Positions 51,939-64,000 of a DNA stretch of 64,000 nucleotides are shown one piece after another (position 1 is the stretch's first letter; every line of letters starts with the position of its first letter). The notes beneath the pieces are model-generated. The model was not told where the DNA came from. It ran no database searches and saw nothing but the letters and a program-made list of their open reading frames with translations. Source of the DNA: Erysipelotrichaceae bacterium (GTDB lineage: Bacteria; Bacillota_I; Bacilli_A; Erysipelotrichales; Erysipelotrichaceae); the NCBI GenBank assembly GCA_030528645.1, contig JAUMYM010000001.1, positions 60,257 to 124,256 of the forward strand, in the 5' to 3' direction. The position numbers and the translations under genes were made by a program.

Positions 51939-52739
51939 ATGAAAAAACATATATTTATTGACCTTGATGGAACCCTATTAGACTTTAAAAACAGTGACTA
52001 TGTCTATCCATCAAGTATCCAAGCCATTCAATTAGCTCGTAAAAACGGGCATCATATATACATCAATACAGGACGTAGTAAAGCCGGTATATTTAAACAT
52101 GTCTTAGACATAGGCTTTGATGGTCTAATCTGTGGCAATGGTGCTTATGTTGAGGTAAATCAAGAAGTATTAAAAGAAGAATACCTATCAGAAAGCAACG
52201 TAAAGGATTTACTACAATTTTTAAAAGAACACCAAGCACTCTTCTTTGTAGAAACTCATCAAGGTATTTATAGTGATGAAGCAATGCACCAATATTTAAA
52301 AGAATACGTGAATCAACAAGATAATTGTTTTGTCGATTCCATCCAATCCTTAGAAAAAGCCAATCTTCAACAAGTATGTAAAGTATGTGTGATTAAAAGT
52401 TGTATCCCTGTCGCTTATATGCAAGAGCGTTTTGGAAGTAACTTCATCCTTCATGACAACAGCAATGGCAACTATAGTACCAACGGATGTGAACTTGGTT
52501 TACTACATTCCAGTAAAAAAGATGGAATTTCTATTATTACACAACACTTAAACATTGACCATCAAGCAACCGTTAGTATTGGAGATGGTGACAATGACTT
52601 AGAAATGATTCAATATGCAAACTGTGGCATTGCCATGGGCAATAGTAAGCCAATCTTATTAAAACATGCCGATTACATTACCACCGATTATCATCACGAT
52701 GGCATTTATCAAGCCTTCTTATATCTTGGAGTGATTTAA
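51939..52739 (+). CDS. HAD superfamily Cof-type phosphatase
   Basis: This 266-residue enzyme has the HAD nucleophile motif FIDLDGTLL, a class IIb C2 cap (residues about 80-190) and the Mg-binding motif SIGDGDNDLEMI, followed by GIAMGNSKPILL. Cof-type phosphatases act on a range of sugar phosphates and flavin or pyridoxal phosphates. The start is set by a GAGGT site. It is followed with a single base of spacing by the YitT gene, so they are co-transcribed. Confidence 0.9.
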   Translation: MKKHIFIDLDGTLLDFKNSDYVYPSSIQAIQLARKNGHHIYINTGRSKAGIFKHVLDIGFDGLICGNGAYVEVNQEVLKEEYLSESNVKDLLQFLKEHQALFFVETHQGIYSDEAMHQYLKEYVNQQDNCFVDSIQSLEKANLQQVCKVCVIKSCIPVAYMQERFGSNFILHDNSNGNYSTNGCELGLLHSSKKDGISIITQHLNIDHQATVSIGDGDNDLEMIQYANCGIAMGNSKPILLKHADYITTDYHHDGIYQAFLYLGVI

Positions 52740-52740
52740 C

Positions 52741-53610
52741 ATGAAACAATATTTAAAATCAAAAACAGGGAAAACTCTTTTATCTCTAATTACTTGTATC
52801 TGTTCTTCTTTGCTACAAGCCATAGCGATTCAAGCCTTCATTGAACCAAGTCATTTAATTTCAGGAGGCATTACCGGATTAGCCTTATTGCTTAATAGTG
52901 TGTCAAAATCCATTCAACTTCCCATCACCACATCCATTTGGATTATTTTATTAAATGCTCCACTTGCGATGATTTGTTATAAATACGTATCAAAACGCTT
53001 TGCCTTTTATTCAACATTAAACTTTGTTTTAACCTCTATCTTATTAGGTATTGTACGCATTCAACCATTGTTTAATGATATTATCTTAAACATTTCCTTT
53101 GGTGGTTTTATCTCAGCAATGAGTGTTGTAATTGCCTTAAAGGGCCATGCCTCAACAGGTGGTACAGACTTTATCGCCCTATACTTTTCTAACAAGTATA
53201 ATAAAGCAATTTGGGAATATATCTTTATTGGTAATGTCATTATGATTATTATCTTTGGTTTTACAACAAACTGGATCAATGCCGGTTATACCATTTTATT
53301 TCAATTTATCGCAACCCGCACAGTCGCAACGTTTCACACACGTTATCAACGCATTACTCTACAAATTACTACAACCCTTCCAAATGAAGTTATTACAAGT
53401 TATGTATCGAACTTTAAACATGGTATTACTGTATTAAATGGATATGGAGGCTATAGTAAAAAACCGGTTTCCATGCTTACAACGGTTGTCTCTTCGTATG
53501 AAGTCAGTGATGTAATTGATTGTATTAAAACCATTGATCCAAATGTAATTATCAATGTCTTTACAACCAAAGACTTTGTCGGTAGCTTCCATCATCAACC
53601 ATTAGACTAA
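52741..53610 (+). CDS. YitT family membrane protein
   Basis: This 289-residue protein has about six helices and the YitT/DUF161 pattern AIAIQAFIEPSHLISGGITGLALLLN and GGTDFIALYFSNKY, followed by the C-terminal DUF2179 domain (GYGGYSKKPVSMLTTVVSSYEV). It is predicted to lie in the cytoplasmic membrane with the last domain inside. YitT family members are numerous in Firmicutes and their transport function is not settled. It starts one base after the HAD gene's stop codon. Confidence 0.9.
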   Translation: MKQYLKSKTGKTLLSLITCICSSLLQAIAIQAFIEPSHLISGGITGLALLLNSVSKSIQLPITTSIWIILLNAPLAMICYKYVSKRFAFYSTLNFVLTSILLGIVRIQPLFNDIILNISFGGFISAMSVVIALKGHASTGGTDFIALYFSNKYNKAIWEYIFIGNVIMIIIFGFTTNWINAGYTILFQFIATRTVATFHTRYQRITLQITTTLPNEVITSYVSNFKHGITVLNGYGGYSKKPVSMLTTVVSSYEVSDVIDCIKTIDPNVIINVFTTKDFVGSFHHQPLD

Positions 53611-53638
53611 AAAGAGTGGATTATCCTTCCACTCTTTT
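53609..53638. terminator. Bidirectional terminator between yitT and the EIICB gene
   Basis: AAAAGAGTGGA and TCCACTCTTTT form a perfect 11-bp stem flanked by A and T runs, so it works for both converging genes. Confidence 0.85.
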
Positions 53639-55165
53639 ACTTTCTGCAATTTTTTTAATCATAAAACGACGAATCATAATACTACTTGCACCAAAGATCA
53701 TCGCAAAACCGGCACGTGTCTCTACAACACGCAAGGCTCCTAATTTTAAAATTTCATCAAAATCAATCAAGGTAATATCATTTACCTGAACCGTAAGACG
53801 AAGCGGAGAAGCGTGAATCACTTTAATGTTATCCACACCACCGACCGCTTGTGACAAACCATCCACAATACGTTGTGTTTTTCCTGTATTTAATAAATCA
53901 AATGCCAAATATTTAAAGAAAACTTGAATTAAAACATAATACACCACAAAAATCACAATACCTATCATAAAGATTAATGATATCGTTCTTGCATAGTTTG
54001 GATCACGTAGATACACCAATAAATCCGGCAAACTACCCGGTAGCGCAGTTACAACATCTCCTGTATACTTAAACCCTAAGAAGACTTTCAAGATTTGTAA
54101 TACCGCAAACAAAGATCCTGTAATCATTAAATGAATAAAGAACAACAATGGACTTAATACCAATAATGCAATTTCTACCGGTAGTAAGATACCTGTAAAC
54201 ATAGATACAATCATCGCTAAAATTAAAAACAAACGAATCTTACGACGCTCAATTTTATCGGTATATAAGAAATACGAAGACATTAATAAACTTGGAACAG
54301 CAAATAAATTTAAAATATAATACGGTGTAATAAAACGTCCAAAACCGGTAGAAACAACATTTTGATTTGCCATGGCAATCCATACATTTAAATCACCCGC
54401 ATACGACTCTCCAGCTAACGATAACCATGTTCCACCTAAACTGTCATACCAAAACGGATCACGAATTAAATGATTGATTCCAATGACCGATGTAACACGA
54501 TCGGCAACACCATAGACAAACAAACTCATCGGATTGGTAATATCCTGCGCTACAAAGTTGACTGCCATATGAATAAACTTATCAAAGGTAGGCCAAAACA
54601 ATGTCGTAATAAAGGCTGCTACACTACAATAAAAAATATTACTTAAAATTGCCCATGTATCATTATCAATAAACAACATTAAGCTATAACGACTTCTTTT
54701 ACGACTTCTTGAATAACTCACTCTTGTACAAAACCCTACTACAAGTGTCGCAATTAAACCAATTTGTAACGGATGACGCACAATATGAGCCGGTAAATAT
54801 GAAGCTGTATATTGAATCCCTAAAATCGGTTGAAAGCTAAGGGGTGGTAAATCACTTGATGAAAAAAACATCGTTACAATTAAAAAAACAACATAACCGA
54901 TAATTCCAGATACAACATTGGTCGAAGAATTATTCTTTCTTGATACAATTTTAATTAAAACAATGAATGGAAAGTTAACAATGATAAAACTTCCTACTAA
55001 ATGTAAAATTTCAGATACTAATATAATATTACGATTTTTTATCGTATAAAATAAATTAACACTTTCGTTATGAACTAAATATCCTATCCCAACAAAAATA
55101 AACGCAACAAAAAGAATCTTAAGGGGTAACCTTAATGTATCCATTAAAGATTGATATCTTTTCAT
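53621..55165 (-). CDS. PTS EIICB-like protein lacking the phosphorylation cysteine
   Basis: This about 514-residue protein follows the glucose-family EIIC layout (about ten helices, STPFHLPFIF-like loops) and ends in an EIIB-like domain (VDGLSQAVGGVDNIKVIHASPLRLTVQVN and RAGFAMIFG). In active EIIB the motif is VDACITRLRV, whose Cys is phosphorylated; here it reads IHASPLRLTV, so the Cys is Ser. The EIIC motif GITEPxEF is GILLPVEI (near 54170), losing one of the two conserved acidic residues. It therefore cannot take part in standard PTS phosphotransfer and may be a non-PTS transporter, a channel or a regulator. The start at 55165 is set by AGGAGG. It is divergent from rodA. Confidence 0.8.
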   Translation of the reverse strand: MKRYQSLMDTLRLPLKILFVAFIFVGIGYLVHNESVNLFYTIKNRNIILVSEILHLVGSFIIVNFPFIVLIKIVSRKNNSSTNVVSGIIGYVVFLIVTMFFSSSDLPPLSFQPILGIQYTASYLPAHIVRHPLQIGLIATLVVGFCTRVSYSRSRKRSRYSLMLFIDNDTWAILSNIFYCSVAAFITTLFWPTFDKFIHMAVNFVAQDITNPMSLFVYGVADRVTSVIGINHLIRDPFWYDSLGGTWLSLAGESYAGDLNVWIAMANQNVVSTGFGRFITPYYILNLFAVPSLLMSSYFLYTDKIERRKIRLFLILAMIVSMFTGILLPVEIALLVLSPLLFFIHLMITGSLFAVLQILKVFLGFKYTGDVVTALPGSLPDLLVYLRDPNYARTISLIFMIGIVIFVVYYVLIQVFFKYLAFDLLNTGKTQRIVDGLSQAVGGVDNIKVIHASPLRLTVQVNDITLIDFDEILKLGALRVVETRAGFAMIFGASSIMIRRFMIKKIAESKRVEG

Positions 55166-55227: not shown

Positions 55228-56421
55228 ATGCGTCAAATTCCTCAAGCAAAAAAGAAATTTATTTATGATTATTCCTTAATCATTTTTATATTGATTATCG
55301 CTACCATAAGTATTGTAAGTATCTACTTAGCGGATCCCATTATGGCAAGTAATCTACGTGGAAGTAACCTTTGGCAAAAACAACTCATGTGGTACATCAT
55401 TTCCTTTGTAGTATGTTACTTCTTAATAAAACTGGGTGTCGATCGTCTTTTTACTGCCGTTAGTATTTTCTATTGGATTTTAATCGGTCTTTTAGTACTA
55501 CTATTAATTGATAAGTTTCTCTTTAACTTACCGGATCTATTTATTCGCCCAATCAATGGAACAACCGCATGGATTATCCTACCAAAAATAGGATCCATCC
55601 AACCAAGTGAATTTATGAAAGTGGTCTTAATTCTACAATGTTCCAATGTCATTTATAATCACAATTTAGAAAAAAATGCCATGAGCTTTAGCTCAGATTT
55701 TGAATTATTCTATAAGATTTTAAAAGTAGTAGCACTTCCCCTTGTACTAATTGTCTTACAACCGGATACAGGGATTCCTATTGTCATTGTTGTAAGTATT
55801 GCGACTATGCTGATGATTGCAGGCATACGCAAAGAATGGATATGGATAGGCTTAGCCTTTGTCATTTTCTTATTTGCAGCCGTACTTTATCTTTTCTACT
55901 TCCATCCATCTTTGCTTGGAAAACTGATGGGAAGCAGTTATAAACTACAACGCTTCTATGGCTGGTTACAAACAGATAAATACTACCTAACGTATGGCAA
56001 CCAACTCTATACATCCATTGCAGCACTTGGATCAGGAGGACTAAATGGTCACGCCTTAAATCAATTAGTCATTTCCTTTGCCGAACCACAGACCGACTTT
56101 ATCTTTGCAGTAATAGGACAAAATTTCGGCTTTATCGGTACCAGCCTTGTGGTAGTTATCATTACTATTTTTGATATTAAGCTCATTGATATTGCGATGA
56201 ATCATAAATCAGAAAAAGAAAAAATTATGATGGCAGGACTATTAGGCATGTTAATCTTCCAACAAATTCAAAATATCTCTATGATTATTGGTTTACTACC
56301 CATTACAGGTATTACACTTCCATTAATCTCTTATGGAGGAAGCAGCATCATGTCTTACTTTATACCATTTGCCATTGTATTCTATATGGCTAGCGAAAAT
56401 AAACTTGCCCTAAAACATTAA
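55228..56421 (+). CDS. RodA/FtsW-type SEDS peptidoglycan glycosyltransferase
   Basis: This 397-residue SEDS protein has ten helices and family motifs NGTTAWIILPKIGSIQPSEF and PITGITLPLISYGGSSIMSYF, as in RodA. SEDS enzymes polymerise lipid II into glycan strands in the cytoplasmic membrane with a partner class B PBP. No PBP gene is adjacent. It is divergently transcribed from the EIICB gene, with an AAGGAG site, and ends at a strong terminator. RodA, FtsW and SpoVE cannot be separated with certainty, though the isolated position and length favour RodA. Confidence 0.88.
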   Translation: MRQIPQAKKKFIYDYSLIIFILIIATISIVSIYLADPIMASNLRGSNLWQKQLMWYIISFVVCYFLIKLGVDRLFTAVSIFYWILIGLLVLLLIDKFLFNLPDLFIRPINGTTAWIILPKIGSIQPSEFMKVVLILQCSNVIYNHNLEKNAMSFSSDFELFYKILKVVALPLVLIVLQPDTGIPIVIVVSIATMLMIAGIRKEWIWIGLAFVIFLFAAVLYLFYFHPSLLGKLMGSSYKLQRFYGWLQTDKYYLTYGNQLYTSIAALGSGGLNGHALNQLVISFAEPQTDFIFAVIGQNFGFIGTSLVVVIITIFDIKLIDIAMNHKSEKEKIMMAGLLGMLIFQQIQNISMIIGLLPITGITLPLISYGGSSIMSYFIPFAIVFYMASENKLALKH

Positions 56422-56444: not shown

Positions 56445-57215
56445 TTATAACAATGTCTTTAATCGTTGAATGTAAGAGACTTGCTTAAAACGCAACATCT
56501 TAAAACACAAATCCGATTTTCTAATAACAATCGACTTCTCTTTATCCAACTTATATTCAAATTGATCTGCCAATAAACTAACACCCTTAAAATGACGATT
56601 TTCAAAACGAAATACGGTAGTATCTTTAAAAAGAATACTTGAACGATAACTACGATAACGTCCATGATTTAATCCGGCAATCTCTGTAAGTTGTAAGACA
56701 TCAATCCCACTTGAAACAATACTACCATTCAATGTTCGATTATAAGCCGTAGACCCTAATTGCCCACACACTAACATACCATTACCACGAAAAGACTCAA
56801 GGTATTCATCGTTGATATATACATCTAAAGTTTGAGCACGTACTAAATCTTCCAAACGCACTTCATTTACTCCATAATAGGTTTTATTAGTATCGCTAAT
56901 CGCTTCGATTAAAGGATGCTTACTAATAAAGCCATCCTTGGTTTTTAAATCCGTTAATAAATCATCCACTTCATCTAAACAATAATCACTAAAGAACCCC
57001 AAGGTTCCACTATGTAAACCAATAAACTCAACTCGATCTAAACAATCAATAAAGCGATGGATCGCATGTAGTAAAGTCCCATCCCCACCAATGGCAATAC
57101 ATAGCTGCGGACACTCTTCATCATACTTAAAATACCCTTCTAACTCTTTACAAACATACTCTTTTACTTTTGCACTTGTTTCATCTAAACGATGTACTAC
57201 ACAATACGTCTTCAT
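56445..57215 (-). CDS. nadK: NAD kinase
   Basis: NAD kinase phosphorylates NAD to NADP in the cytoplasm. The 256-residue protein has the GGDGT motif (IAIGGDGTLLHAIHRF), the ASP-like segment GLHSGTLGFFSD and the conserved GSTAYNRTLNG region and SS(G) stretch in the C-terminal domain. Length is normal for Firmicutes. It is convergent with rodA and has its own promoter region; downstream of it lies a CYTH gene on the opposite strand. Confidence 0.93.
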   Translation of the reverse strand: MKTYCVVHRLDETSAKVKEYVCKELEGYFKYDEECPQLCIAIGGDGTLLHAIHRFIDCLDRVEFIGLHSGTLGFFSDYCLDEVDDLLTDLKTKDGFISKHPLIEAISDTNKTYYGVNEVRLEDLVRAQTLDVYINDEYLESFRGNGMLVCGQLGSTAYNRTLNGSIVSSGIDVLQLTEIAGLNHGRYRSYRSSILFKDTTVFRFENRHFKGVSLLADQFEYKLDKEKSIVIRKSDLCFKMLRFKQVSYIQRLKTLL

Positions 57216-59180: not shown

Positions 59181-62100
59181 TTAAGATGGTTTCTTTAGCA
59201 ACCATAATACAAACAATAAGATAGCACCGGCTATAGCTCCTACTACACCTAAATAAACCAATAAGTTGTTATTCGTAGATGGCTTATCTTCTTGTATAGA
59301 GTCTACCACCGTTGTTGGTGTTTCTTCTTTTGTACTTTCACTTGTTGTAACTGTTTCAGTAGATGTTGTTGATTCTTCTTGTAGAGTGGTTGAAGTTGTA
59401 GTATCAACTTTTACATTTACCTTACTAGAAGAAATCACATCTTTAACACTTGGTGTTGTTGTAATCACAACATCCTCTTGTTCTTCTACAGTTACACTTG
59501 GTTTTAAAGGTTTTACCTTTAAATTCTTTAAAGCTTGTTTTAGTGTATTCAACGCTTCTGTTAATTCATCCTCTGTAATATGATCATACTTCAATAATTC
59601 TTGTGCTTGATCATACGCTTGTTTTACACCTGCAAAAGATTCCGGCGTATAGTTTGCTTGAGGTAAAGCTTGAATATGTTTTATCATACCTTTTAGCTCT
59701 TCCTTAGAAACCGGTTGATACGCCTTTAATTGTAAACGAGCAAAGCGGAATACTACTTGACGTTTTGCTTGTTCAACATCGGAACTGTCCGGTTGATCTT
59801 GTTTTAATAATGTTTCTGCTTCTTGAACCGCTTCTTTAAAGGCTTCTACACTTTCTGTTGTATATGCATCTAAATATGCATGTTCTACACTGCGAAGAAC
59901 ATCTTGTAATCCTACTTTATCCGCAGCCACATCATCACGTACTAATTTAATTTCCGCTGCAGAAGCATTGTTATTGACTGCCTCTAACGCATATAAACGG
60001 AAGAAACGTGCAGTTGTTGGTGCAAAGTGAATCAATTTTTCATCACGATCACGCTTCAATGTTCCAGAAACAACTTCTTCAAAATGAATGCCATCATCAC
60101 TCTTTTCTAAACGATACTTTAAGATTGTTCCATTAAATGAACCTGTTGTTCTAGGAAGATACGTAATACCACTAATAACGGCATCTTCCGTAAGTTCCAT
60201 TTGAATCCAATGTGGCATTGTTTTAATCGACCATTTTGTATGCCAAATTGTATTTGGATTATCATCAAAGGCCTTTTGTGGTACATCTTCATGATTTTGA
60301 TTCGAAGAAGCACTTACCTTTAAATTAGAAGCATCATAATAATTACTATTCTTAAATGGCTTTAAAGTTAAGTTTTGTAGTGCTTTATGTAATGCACGTT
60401 CATAATAGTCCACTGTTCTTTGCATATTACGTGGTAAATCCACTTTAATATTCGCTAACACTTGATTTAAATGTGCAACACTATCTTCTGTATACATCGA
60501 TAAATCACTTGGAACCAATGCCTTATACTCTTCTACACGACGATAATCGGCTTTCTTATATTCACTTTGTTTTAACAATGTTTGTAACTCATCTACTACT
60601 TCATTTACATCTTGTGCACTGACTTGATATTGTTTTAAAAGACTATGTGCATTTGCAAATAACGCTTTGTTTTCTCTTGATAAGTAATGTAACTTCGCTA
60701 ATAGGTGATCAATTTCAATGGTTGAAACGAAAGTAGTCTTCTTCCCTAATTTTACACTAGATACATAGCCATCAAAGGCATGTGTTTTACTACCAATATA
60801 TTGTACCGGTAACATCATTGTTGCTAAAAGAGGTCGAGAACCAACTTTTTCATTATCACCAATCACATCCACTAACTTACCATCAACATATAATTTTGTA
60901 GTATTTAAACTATTTTCAAACGTTAATTCTACCCATTGATTTACAGGTAATGTGTAATTAAATGAATAATGATAACCCTCACGAGTAAATCCTACTTGTC
61001 CACTTCCTACCTGAACTGCCTTAATACTTCCATACGGACTTTCAAATAAGACTTGTTCTTCCACACGATCTGAACTACGTTTTACTTTTACAGACAAGGT
61101 ATTATGTAAACCTACTGTTGTAAGCGGTGTTTCAACATAACTTTCATTTCCATGTAGATGTAGTGCTTCTTTACCATCCACTACTTCAATTTCCGCATTT
61201 TTACTTGATACAATATTACGTTTATTCAAAGAAGCATCGTTTAAATCGTAGAATGGATAATGCATCAAGACTTCATCGTGCATGCTTTCTACATAATCAA
61301 AATTAGTGTTTGGAACATCCTGCAATCTCTTTGATGTTGCGATGGCTTCATTTAAGTTATAGCTACCTTTTCCCCATAACTTCGCCGCAAACAATGGCAT
61401 TGCCGGTTTTATTCTTACATAAACATCATATTCACTAACCCCATTATCTAAGATGTCAATCATATCATTCCATACAGCAAATGATCCACCCAACATTTGT
61501 TTATCACCAGCTGGAATAAAGTGACCACCGATGTGATTGATTTCATCCTCATATAGAATCGATGGAGATAAATAATCATAGTAATAGCCTGCATTTGGTA
61601 CGATGTAGTATTGTCCATCGTTGGAGTTAATTAAATCAAAGCCTAGGTCATACATCTCTTTCATATTTGACCATGTCGCATTCCATAAATTCATTTGATA
61701 GTTCGTACCTAAAACTTCTACACTACCCTTAATATAAGACAAACTACCCCAAATACGAGGCTTACGACCTGAATCTTCAATAAATTTCAATAAATCCTTA
61801 CTGAAACGACGATATGCATTTCCATCTGCCGTATATTCATCCGCTCCAATATGAATCGTTGTATCCATATCAAAGACTGGATTGCTACCTTGTAAGTACT
61901 CATTAAAGATCGTCTTAACAAAACCTAAACTATCCTCATAACGACTAATTAAATTCAAGTGATCATTATCTCGACCATAAGTACCATGTCGTAAATCCGG
62001 TCTTACTTTTGTTAACGCTAATGAATGTGCCGGTGTATCAATTTCAGGAACAATATCTACTCCATAAACACGTGAATCTTGAATCAATTGTCTAAATTCA

Positions 62101-64000
62101 TCTTTGGTATACCAAACATCTTTACTTGTTAAATCCGCTTTATACAAGCCTCCTTGTCCACCCTCTTTAATATCAGACTCTAAACGGAATCCTGAATATG
62201 CACTCATTGGATCTTTATTTGCCTTAGAGTAATTCTCAAGTGGAATCAAGTTATCATTTAAATGAATATGGAAATCATTTAATTTATACCAAGCCATTAA
62301 CTTCACGACTTGTTTTAAATACTCCATTGTAAATGTCTTACGTCCAACATCCAAGATAAAACCACGCACTTCATATAACGGATAATCACGCACAATACCC
62401 TTTGGTAAATGTTGATCGTGCATCAAACTTTGTAAGATGGTTCTTGTTGCCCAAAAAGCACCCGTTTCTTCATAAGCACGTACAAGCACTTTATCATTGA
62501 TTTCTAAAATATATCCCTCTTTTTGTAAACCCAGTGATACATCATCTGTAAGAGTAAAGACAATATCACCGGCACTTGCTTGTGATGCAAACGCCAATGT
62601 CTTACCTGTCATATCTTGATAATCACTTACAAAAGCCTGTGCCACTTTTTCTAAACGTGGATCTAATACAACGACTTTTGTCGTATCACTTACTTGATAG
62701 ATTCCTTCATGCCCTACCCACTCACTTACTTCAGGCAATACCTTTGGAGCTTTATTACTTCCAATTTGATCACGATACTTACCTAAAACTGTAACCGGGA
62801 TTTCTTTAAACATGTATTCTTTCGTTACTTTATCGGTAATCTTAAAAGAAACACGAACGGTTACATCTACAAAAGGTTGATAGATTTCTAATTGATCTCC
62901 AATAATTTGTTCAATATCCGTACCATTATAAACCACATCATAGGCATCGGATTCCGGTAGATGAACCACTAATTTCTTACTATCTAATGTTAAAGCTTCC
63001 ACTTGAATGGCATTTGCTACATCATCCATCGTTTCTTGCCCAACACCACCATAAATTTCCACTTCATAAAGGGAAACATTTTGCCAACTAATCCCTGAAT
63101 CTGGATCCAATGGTGTAAATTCATTCACTAAGATACGTACATAACGTGCACGTTCTACTTGATCTAAAATTACTTTTTGGAATTTTGAAGAAGTAACTTG
63201 ATTGTATGTTTTTACGCTTCTCCAGTCATTTGCCGCTGGATCATTTGAAACTTGAATGGCATAAGAAGTTGCCTTACGACCTTCCCAATACAAATGAAGA
63301 CTCTTAACATTCTTAACAGAACCTAAATCGATATATGCCCAATGTGGTGCACCACTTGTACCACTTGCCCAGCGACTTGATCGAGACGTACGATCACCAT
63401 CAACTAACTTACTACCTTGTAAATTAGGATCTTCATTACTAGATGTTACCACCACTTTTCCTAAAGCTACGTTTTCCGCATCATCTTGTATGGCTTCACC
63501 CTTTACTACACCAAGTACTTCAAATTCTCTTAATGAAACACTTGGATAAGCATTCTTCTTTAATTTTTCAATCGTTACCTTAATATAACGATACTCTTTT
63601 GATACATCAACCGCTACTGATAAATCTTGTGGATAGCCTTCTTCAAACTTATCTTCCGATTGATAAATTACATCATAATCTACTTGGTTATTAGAACCTT
63701 CTATTTTAAATAATGCAATACGTTGTGAAGTATCATTTTCAGAAACCAAACGGAATCCTTTCACTTCACTGTTGCCTTGTAAATCGACTTCCAACCATTG
63801 TGCAGGTGCAGCCTCAGCAGACCAGCGATCTCTACGTTGCGCATTTACAATGCCATCGACTGCCTTATCTGCTCCCATACCATATTGAGCAGCTTGTTGG
63901 CTCGCTCTTACCGGTTTGCCTTGCGCAATATTTGTTGGAAGTGGAGTTGTTTGCCCTGTTTCACTACCTAAAATACCACGTACTTCAAACTCTCTTAAAG
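59181..64000 (-). CDS. Membrane-anchored GH20 glycosidase with carbohydrate-binding domains (5' end beyond window)
   Basis: At least 1,606 residues are visible; the frame stays open to the right edge, so the N terminus with any signal peptide is missing. From N to C terminus: two F5/8C (discoidin) domains (about 63,045-64,000), GH20b domain, GH20 catalytic barrel (about 61,340-62,400) with the catalytic Asp-Glu in HIGADEYT near 61,838, a LamG-like domain (about 60,730-61,200), a FIVAR helical repeat, a third F5/8C domain, two further FIVAR repeats, a Ser/Thr-rich linker, a hydrophobic helix and LLKKPS. GH20 covers β-N-acetylhexosaminidases and lacto-N-biosidases. It would act outside on mucin or milk glycans. 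No LPxTG motif is present, so the protein is held by its C-terminal helix. Confidence 0.88.
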   Translation of the reverse strand, partial: LREFEVRGILGSETGQTTPLPTNIAQGKPVRASQQAAQYGMGADKAVDGIVNAQRRDRWSAEAAPAQWLEVDLQGNSEVKGFRLVSENDTSQRIALFKIEGSNNQVDYDVIYQSEDKFEEGYPQDLSVAVDVSKEYRYIKVTIEKLKKNAYPSVSLREFEVLGVVKGEAIQDDAENVALGKVVVTSSNEDPNLQGSKLVDGDRTSRSSRWASGTSGAPHWAYIDLGSVKNVKSLHLYWEGRKATSYAIQVSNDPAANDWRSVKTYNQVTSSKFQKVILDQVERARYVRILVNEFTPLDPDSGISWQNVSLYEVEIYGGVGQETMDDVANAIQVEALTLDSKKLVVHLPESDAYDVVYNGTDIEQIIGDQLEIYQPFVDVTVRVSFKITDKVTKEYMFKEIPVTVLGKYRDQIGSNKAPKVLPEVSEWVGHEGIYQVSDTTKVVVLDPRLEKVAQAFVSDYQDMTGKTLAFASQASAGDIVFTLTDDVSLGLQKEGYILEINDKVLVRAYEETGAFWATRTILQSLMHDQHLPKGIVRDYPLYEVRGFILDVGRKTFTMEYLKQVVKLMAWYKLNDFHIHLNDNLIPLENYSKANKDPMSAYSGFRLESDIKEGGQGGLYKADLTSKDVWYTKDEFRQLIQDSRVYGVDIVPEIDTPAHSLALTKVRPDLRHGTYGRDNDHLNLISRYEDSLGFVKTIFNEYLQGSNPVFDMDTTIHIGADEYTADGNAYRRFSKDLLKFIEDSGRKPRIWGSLSYIKGSVEVLGTNYQMNLWNATWSNMKEMYDLGFDLINSNDGQYYIVPNAGYYYDYLSPSILYEDEINHIGGHFIPAGDKQMLGGSFAVWNDMIDILDNGVSEYDVYVRIKPAMPLFAAKLWGKGSYNLNEAIATSKRLQDVPNTNFDYVESMHDEVLMHYPFYDLNDASLNKRNIVSSKNAEIEVVDGKEALHLHGNESYVETPLTTVGLHNTLSVKVKRSSDRVEEQVLFESPYGSIKAVQVGSGQVGFTREGYHYSFNYTLPVNQWVELTFENSLNTTKLYVDGKLVDVIGDNEKVGSRPLLATMMLPVQYIGSKTHAFDGYVSSVKLGKKTTFVSTIEIDHLLAKLHYLSRENKALFANAHSLLKQYQVSAQDVNEVVDELQTLLKQSEYKKADYRRVEEYKALVPSDLSMYTEDSVAHLNQVLANIKVDLPRNMQRTVDYYERALHKALQNLTLKPFKNSNYYDASNLKVSASSNQNHEDVPQKAFDDNPNTIWHTKWSIKTMPHWIQMELTEDAVISGITYLPRTTGSFNGTILKYRLEKSDDGIHFEEVVSGTLKRDRDEKLIHFAPTTARFFRLYALEAVNNNASAAEIKLVRDDVAADKVGLQDVLRSVEHAYLDAYTTESVEAFKEAVQEAETLLKQDQPDSSDVEQAKRQVVFRFARLQLKAYQPVSKEELKGMIKHIQALPQANYTPESFAGVKQAYDQAQELLKYDHITEDELTEALNTLKQALKNLKVKPLKPSVTVEEQEDVVITTTPSVKDVISSSKVNVKVDTTTSTTLQEESTTSTETVTTSESTKEETPTTVVDSIQEDKPSTNNNLLVYLGVVGAIAGAILLFVLWLLKKPS

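Follow-up and report, generated by a model that had tools for sequence, protein, structure and literature searches.

Glucose-superfamily EIICB homologs lacking phosphotransfer residues in Erysipelotrichaceae and their possible re-use as non-phosphorylating carriers

The window analyzed here, a 64,000-nucleotide stretch of a contig from an Erysipelotrichaceae bacterium (GenBank JAUMYM010000001.1), encodes a homolog of the EIICB permeases of the phosphotransferase system (PTS). A divergent RodA-type gene and a nearby nadK were both located as a first-pass annotation of the sequence had claimed (Table 1). The reading frame of the EIICB-like gene is complete, with an ATG at position 55165, a stop codon ending at position 53621, and no internal stops, and an AGGAGG Shine-Dalgarno sequence lies approximately 6 nt 5' of the ATG. 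Its product aligns end to end with solved PtsG chains (phmmer and profile HMMER against the PDB). It scores above the Pfam cut-off for EIIC (58.2 versus 30.7 bits), below that for EIIB (12.8 versus 27 bits), and below the cut-offs of all NCBIfam EIICB models, including the glucose EIICB equivalog TIGR02002 (150.1 versus 591.8 bits). Elsewhere in the window, a HAD phosphatase and a YitT-family membrane protein (YitT_membrane, DUF2179) are encoded at positions 51939-53610, and positions 59181-63878 encode a very large, apparently secreted or surface protein with predicted glycoside hydrolase-like sequence, F5/8-type carbohydrate-binding repeats, and a C-terminal membrane anchor.

Table 1. Positions in the window of the EIICB-like gene, its distinguishing features, and its neighbors.
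Feature	Coordinates	Strand	Basis or detail
EIICB-like protein without phosphorylation residues	53621..55165	-	514 aa
EIIC-like membrane domain, residues 1-420	53906..55165	-	Pfam PF02378, E=9e-16
EIIB-like domain, residues 430-514, catalytic Cys absent	53624..53878	-	Foldseek and dN/dS
Ser453 codon, opposite PtsG phosphocysteine Cys421	53807..53809	-	Alignments
GILLPVEI, residues 325-332, equivalent of GITEPIEF; Leu328 in place of the OH-6-coordinating Glu298	54170..54193	-	
Arg235 codon, at PtsG Asn215; basic in 96/100 members	54461..54463	-	
GDLNVWIA, residues 257-264, family motif GDVxIWxA	54374..54397	-	
G276 to F288 block, family motif GxxxTPYYxxNxF	54302..54340	-	Asn286 in place of PtsG Lys257, 97/100
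HP2-loop insertion, family-specific, residues 369-376; conserved Ala374 and Pro376	54038..54061	-	Alignment
RodA/FtsW family protein, divergent neighbor	55228..56421	+	Pfam PF01098, E=8e-65
NAD kinase (nadK), conserved upstream neighbor	56445..57215	-	Sequence

Two independent alignments, one made with phmmer and profile HMMER to PtsG in the PDB and the other with MAFFT and 18-23 canonical EIICBs, agree on the two substitutions that had first drawn attention to this protein. In both, Ser453 takes the place of the catalytic Cys of EIIB (HASPLRL opposite DACITRLR) and Leu328 that of the Glu of the GITE motif (GILLPVEI opposite GITEPIEF). The EIIB fold is otherwise preserved, as had also been claimed, with the GG pair (442-443), Asn446, and G492 retained. 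Among 100 family members aligned with 23 canonical EIICBs, none carries the EIIB Cys and none the GITE Glu, whereas all 23 canonical proteins carry each of these residues; given this distribution, loss of the motifs cannot be attributed to chance. An alignment artefact at the Cys position was ruled out, since the two methods and the 23 canonical controls agree. The residue found in place of Cys is Ser in 57 members, Thr in 23, Gly in 12, Ala in 4, Asn in 3, and Asp in 1, and that in place of Glu is mainly Leu (80), with Ile (6), Phe (5), and Val (4) less common. The first-pass annotation had mentioned neither the HH pair, the linker, the GDVxIW and TPYYxxN blocks, nor the HP2 insertion. The first His of the HP1b HH pair is kept in about 2% and the second in about 3% of 91 members, as compared to both in 23/23 canonical proteins, and the T, P, and G of the TPGR-type linker (KTPGRED in PtsG), conserved in canonical EIICBs, are rare or absent. 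It is almost certain that members of this family do not transfer phosphate by the known chemistry.

When the proteins of 146 genomes from the same bacterial family were searched, full-length relatives (30-92% identity) were recovered in most of the genomes, with scores well apart from those of canonical EIICBs. A profile built from 70 members was run on 245 genomes of the order and matched 163 of them (E<=1e-60); all of the matches listed fall in the same, Erysipelotrichaceae-type family. The nearest named record belongs to Erysipelotrichaceae bacterium OH741_COT-311, and a peptide-pattern scan of genome contigs recovered only a relative from the same genus (L032), which is 92% identical to the window protein and has all of its changes in common. 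Family members form a single clade with a support of 100/100. When samples of the class and phylum were searched at E<=1e-45, the matches outside the family comprised five canonical EIICBs (L163-L165, L167, and L168), in which both Cys and a GITE-type Glu were present, a Cys-less protein (L166), and a 669-aa protein of EIICB type (G321), the residues having been read in all but the last. The Cys-less protein (L166:5527-7059, genome G291) and a second one (L179:1501-3015, genome G302) are an EIICB-like pair, 40% identical, from another family of the same class. They have Ser in place of the EIIB Cys (AASVYRLHV) and Leu in place of the GITE Glu (GFTLPLEI). In the tree, L166 lies on a long branch outside the window protein's family; it has no HP2 insertion, and its neighbors include ptsI, nadK, and an RpiR-type regulator gene. 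The pair possibly represents a second, independent loss. One genome of the family (G256) has two copies (L172:4583-6124 and L173:5032-6567), both without Cys and Glu, the second of which may be foreign because contamination of this genome is 5%. No published description of the family was found in the PMC literature, most subscription papers being outside that search. The balance of probability tips slightly toward a branch of the glucose-superfamily PTS EIICBs that is confined to Erysipelotrichaceae, is inherited vertically, and stands outside the phosphotransferase system.

Selection on the family gene is purifying, with dN/dS values of 0.015-0.13 in 21 of 22 pairs of relatives; the single outlier (0.31) is the most diverged of the pairs. 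Across these pairs, dN/dS in the EIIB tail is mostly equal to or below that in the EIIC part. The gene is intact and full length in about 95 genomes and the family alignment has 12 invariant columns. In one genome (G143, L092:5598-7212) the gene is present as two overlapping ORFs; this is a single-contig genome whose close relatives have the gene whole, and the split is due to either a frameshift or a sequencing error. The suggestion in the first-pass annotation that the protein had been re-used rather than simply decaying is thus supported by a monophyletic clade without Cys and GITE Glu in which both domains are under purifying selection. Cys and an intact GITE motif in close relatives, or widespread frameshifts, would have refuted this suggestion; L032 shares the changes and only two of ~97 family genomes have a disrupted gene.

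An AlphaFold model built with the family alignment (mean pLDDT 90.8, pTM 0.87) has an elevator-type EIIC fold with a conserved pocket. In Foldseek comparisons, the model groups with PtsG and the MalT EIIC (TMt 0.73 to 5iws), and the tail superimposes on EIIB structures 3bp3, 1o2f, and 3bp8 with an rmsd of 1.2 Å over ~75 residues (TMt 0.87-0.91). The model is closer to 5iws than to the inward-facing 8qsr and 9lgt chains (TMt 0.48) and, from known work on MalT, probably depicts an outward-facing state. Glucose in PtsG is contacted by E202, R203, H211, H212, N215, K257, T297, E298, F337, and S338, with E298 holding OH-6 (PMC11393339). In the family, the E202 site is Asp or Glu in 98/100 members, the R203 site is Arg in 87/100, the N215 site is Arg in 80/100 and basic in 96/100, the K257 site is Asn in 97/100, and the E298 site is Leu in 80/100 and otherwise mostly hydrophobic. 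The residue varies at the equivalents of H211, H212, T297, and F337, which leaves room for relaxation, rather than retuning, of part of the pocket. Among positions conserved at the 80% level in a canonical set of modest size, and with contact residues defined in another protein (the PtsG structure), re-fixation to a new conserved residue was observed at 3 of 9 glucose-contact sites as compared to 1 of 110 other sites (Fisher p=0.001). The contact sites re-fixed in this way are E298 (to Leu), K257 (to Asn), and N215 (to Arg). Additionally, Asp258 is invariant (100/100), Trp262 is present in 99/100 members, and Tyr283 and Asn286 are near-invariant, none of these four being retained in canonical relatives. 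An eight-residue HP2 insertion with a conserved Ala-x-Pro, absent from canonical EIICs, lies beside the HP2 contact residues. The re-fixed contact sites, the new near-invariant residues, and the insertion together point to a pocket that has been altered rather than merely lost and to selection for a new ligand. Of the transporter, channel, and sensor roles initially proposed, the changed pocket favors a ligand-binding carrier or sensor, although the data separate none of the three.

The best explanation, to which a probability of about 0.5 is assigned, is that the protein is an elevator carrier that does not phosphorylate and whose substrate has changed. The EIIC part would still act as an elevator-type carrier. 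Its rebuilt pocket, with Asp222, Arg223, Arg235, Asn286, and the HP2 insertion with its Pro at the center, would bind some small, polar solute, which would be moved by facilitated diffusion, exchange, or ion coupling, without transfer of phosphate. More tentatively, the EIIB-like tail might now have a docking role, whether structural or regulatory. Two changes, the newly conserved Arg of HP1b and the hydrophobic residue at the position of the catalytic Glu, suggest that the substrate is not free glucose and is possibly anionic. There is precedent for such a carrier in PtsG mutants that show facilitated diffusion or uncoupled uptake (PMC3901232) and in the IIC homologs of PTS-less Bacteroides, which have been proposed to be secondary carriers (PMC6281302). 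A carrier function, however, leaves the selection on the EIIB tail without explanation. In its broadest form, the proposal is that PTS permeases, once in Erysipelotrichaceae and perhaps again in another family of the class (L166 and L179), gave rise to carriers or transceptors that do not phosphorylate, have a new substrate, keep a catalytically dead but regulatory EIIB, and belong to the core genome; the chances of this are considered even.

Selection on the tail is one reason to consider a transceptor or sensor, in which EIIC binds a ligand but need not transport it and the Cys-less tail, as a permanently dephosphorylated EIIB, docks a regulator or another PTS protein and relays the signal. 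Docking of dephospho-EIIB to a regulator is a known behavior. The EIIB fold is kept with a dN/dS at or below that of EIIC in most pairs, which is more than an idle domain needs, and the Mlc/EIIB complex 3bp8 is among the structural matches of the tail. Partners would also be available, as the window genome has both EI and HPr. Against a sensor, no regulator gene is conserved beside the family gene in 83 loci, the surface residues around the Cys position are highly variable, and the most conserved family-specific residues sit in the EIIC part. This main alternative is considered rather unlikely, if still to be taken seriously. As to the carrier reading, EI was found in 137 of the 146 genomes of the family, the window genome included, and complete genomes that carry the family gene also have EI, which counts against this reading in that the family gene may not be independent of the PTS. 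In one genus (g19; G018, G068, G095, and G118), the Cys-less EIICB-like gene is kept in 4/4 sampled genomes and is under purifying selection, while the PTS seems to be fading: three of the genomes, which are only 82-88% complete, have HPr but no match to EI or to any other glucose-type EIIC, and the fourth, which is complete, has a diverged EI. This genus alone is suggestive of the family gene being carried without a PTS.

Genes around the family gene were compared across 83 loci. The most common neighbors encode a CYTH protein (62 loci), nadK (55), mutS (50), and RodA/FtsW (40), followed by mutL (36), miaA (32), and recR (30). The family gene is positioned between nadK and mutS-mutL-miaA, with nadK directly upstream in 20 loci, usually at a distance of 4-51 nt, and mutS directly downstream and co-directional in 36 loci, overlapping in 7. 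At the window locus, the YitT and HAD genes lie on the side where most relatives have mutS, mutL, and miaA. The pattern marks an old core gene that has been inherited vertically and is probably often co-transcribed with its neighbors. Because nadK, CYTH, mutS, mutL, miaA, and recR are housekeeping genes, no function was drawn from this context. Likewise, no sugar gene that might give a clue to the substrate was found next to the family gene in the 83 loci, nadK, mutS, rodA, and CYTH being core genes. The first-pass annotation had raised a link with envelope growth. Such a function, together with RodA/FtsW, could for instance be the transport or sensing of a sugar or a precursor of the cell wall. 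The RodA/FtsW gene is immediately divergent in 30 of the 40 loci that have it nearby, but half of the loci are without it, nadK, CYTH, and mutS are more constant neighbors, and the family gene runs in the same direction as mutS, which it often overlaps. Moreover, adjacency to RodA is expected anyway under vertical inheritance within a block of core genes. Beyond adjacency to rodA the envelope link finds no support, and a function in the envelope is regarded as improbable.

Less probable again is that phosphotransfer continues through another residue, either the Ser or Thr found at the Cys position in 80/100 members or a nearby His, such as the one located two residues before this position in the window protein. 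Of the 100 members, 20 have Gly, Ala, Asn, or Asp at the Cys position, and a search of the EIIB tail for a substitute catalytic Cys or His revealed no conserved column (at best 8/91 for Cys and 21/91 for His). Arg426 is gone from the family, as are Glu298, His211, and His212 on the acceptor side. Finally, slow decay of an EIICB pseudogene, which could account for the lost PTS motifs, the split gene of G143, and the internal stops in G102, has a negligible likelihood and is ruled out for the family by the ~95 intact copies, dN/dS values far below 1, the 12 invariant columns, and the new invariant residues.

In textbooks, PTS permeases exemplify transport that is coupled to chemical modification. 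If a non-phosphorylating carrier or sensor is the correct reading, a widespread and constrained natural branch that lacks the chemistry yet retains both domains would show how group translocators can become ordinary carriers or sensors, and the family would provide a ready set of sequences for testing which residues make the coupling. There is also a consequence for annotation. Family members match glucose and N-acetylglucosamine (GlcNAc) PTS models, and those of gut and oral Erysipelotrichaceae could be miscounted as transporters that phosphorylate sugars, by which metabolic models would be misled.

Among known systems, the family is most readily compared to PtsG (TIGR02002, TC 4.A.1), with which it aligns from end to end (E=2e-41 for the profile against PtsG chains) and shares the EIIC-EIIB order, the folds, and, in most members, Arg203 and the PxE of GITEPxEF. 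Unlike PtsG, it is without the phosphocysteine, the GITE Glu, the HH pair, and the T-P-G linker, it has new GDVxIW and TPYYxxN blocks and the HP2 insertion, and the window protein, at 150 versus 591.8 bits, is far under the PtsG family cut-off. By fold, the closest crystal structure is the MalT EIIC of Bacillus cereus (5iws, 6bvg; TMt 0.73 to 5iws), but MalT is a phosphorylating PTS EIIC and its catalytic residues are absent from the window protein. The galactitol-type IIC homologs of PTS-less Bacteroides are similar in being PTS IIC-type proteins that are thought to be free of phosphorylation (PMC6281302). They differ in belonging to another EIIC family (TC 4.A.5) and in being reported as IIC homologs only, whereas the family described here has a fused and conserved Cys-less EIIB tail, in a host with EI and HPr. 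Uncoupled or relaxed PtsG mutants of Escherichia coli likewise have an EIIC fold that carries sugars without phosphorylating them (PMC3901232), but these are single laboratory substitutions, whereas the Erysipelotrichaceae family is natural.
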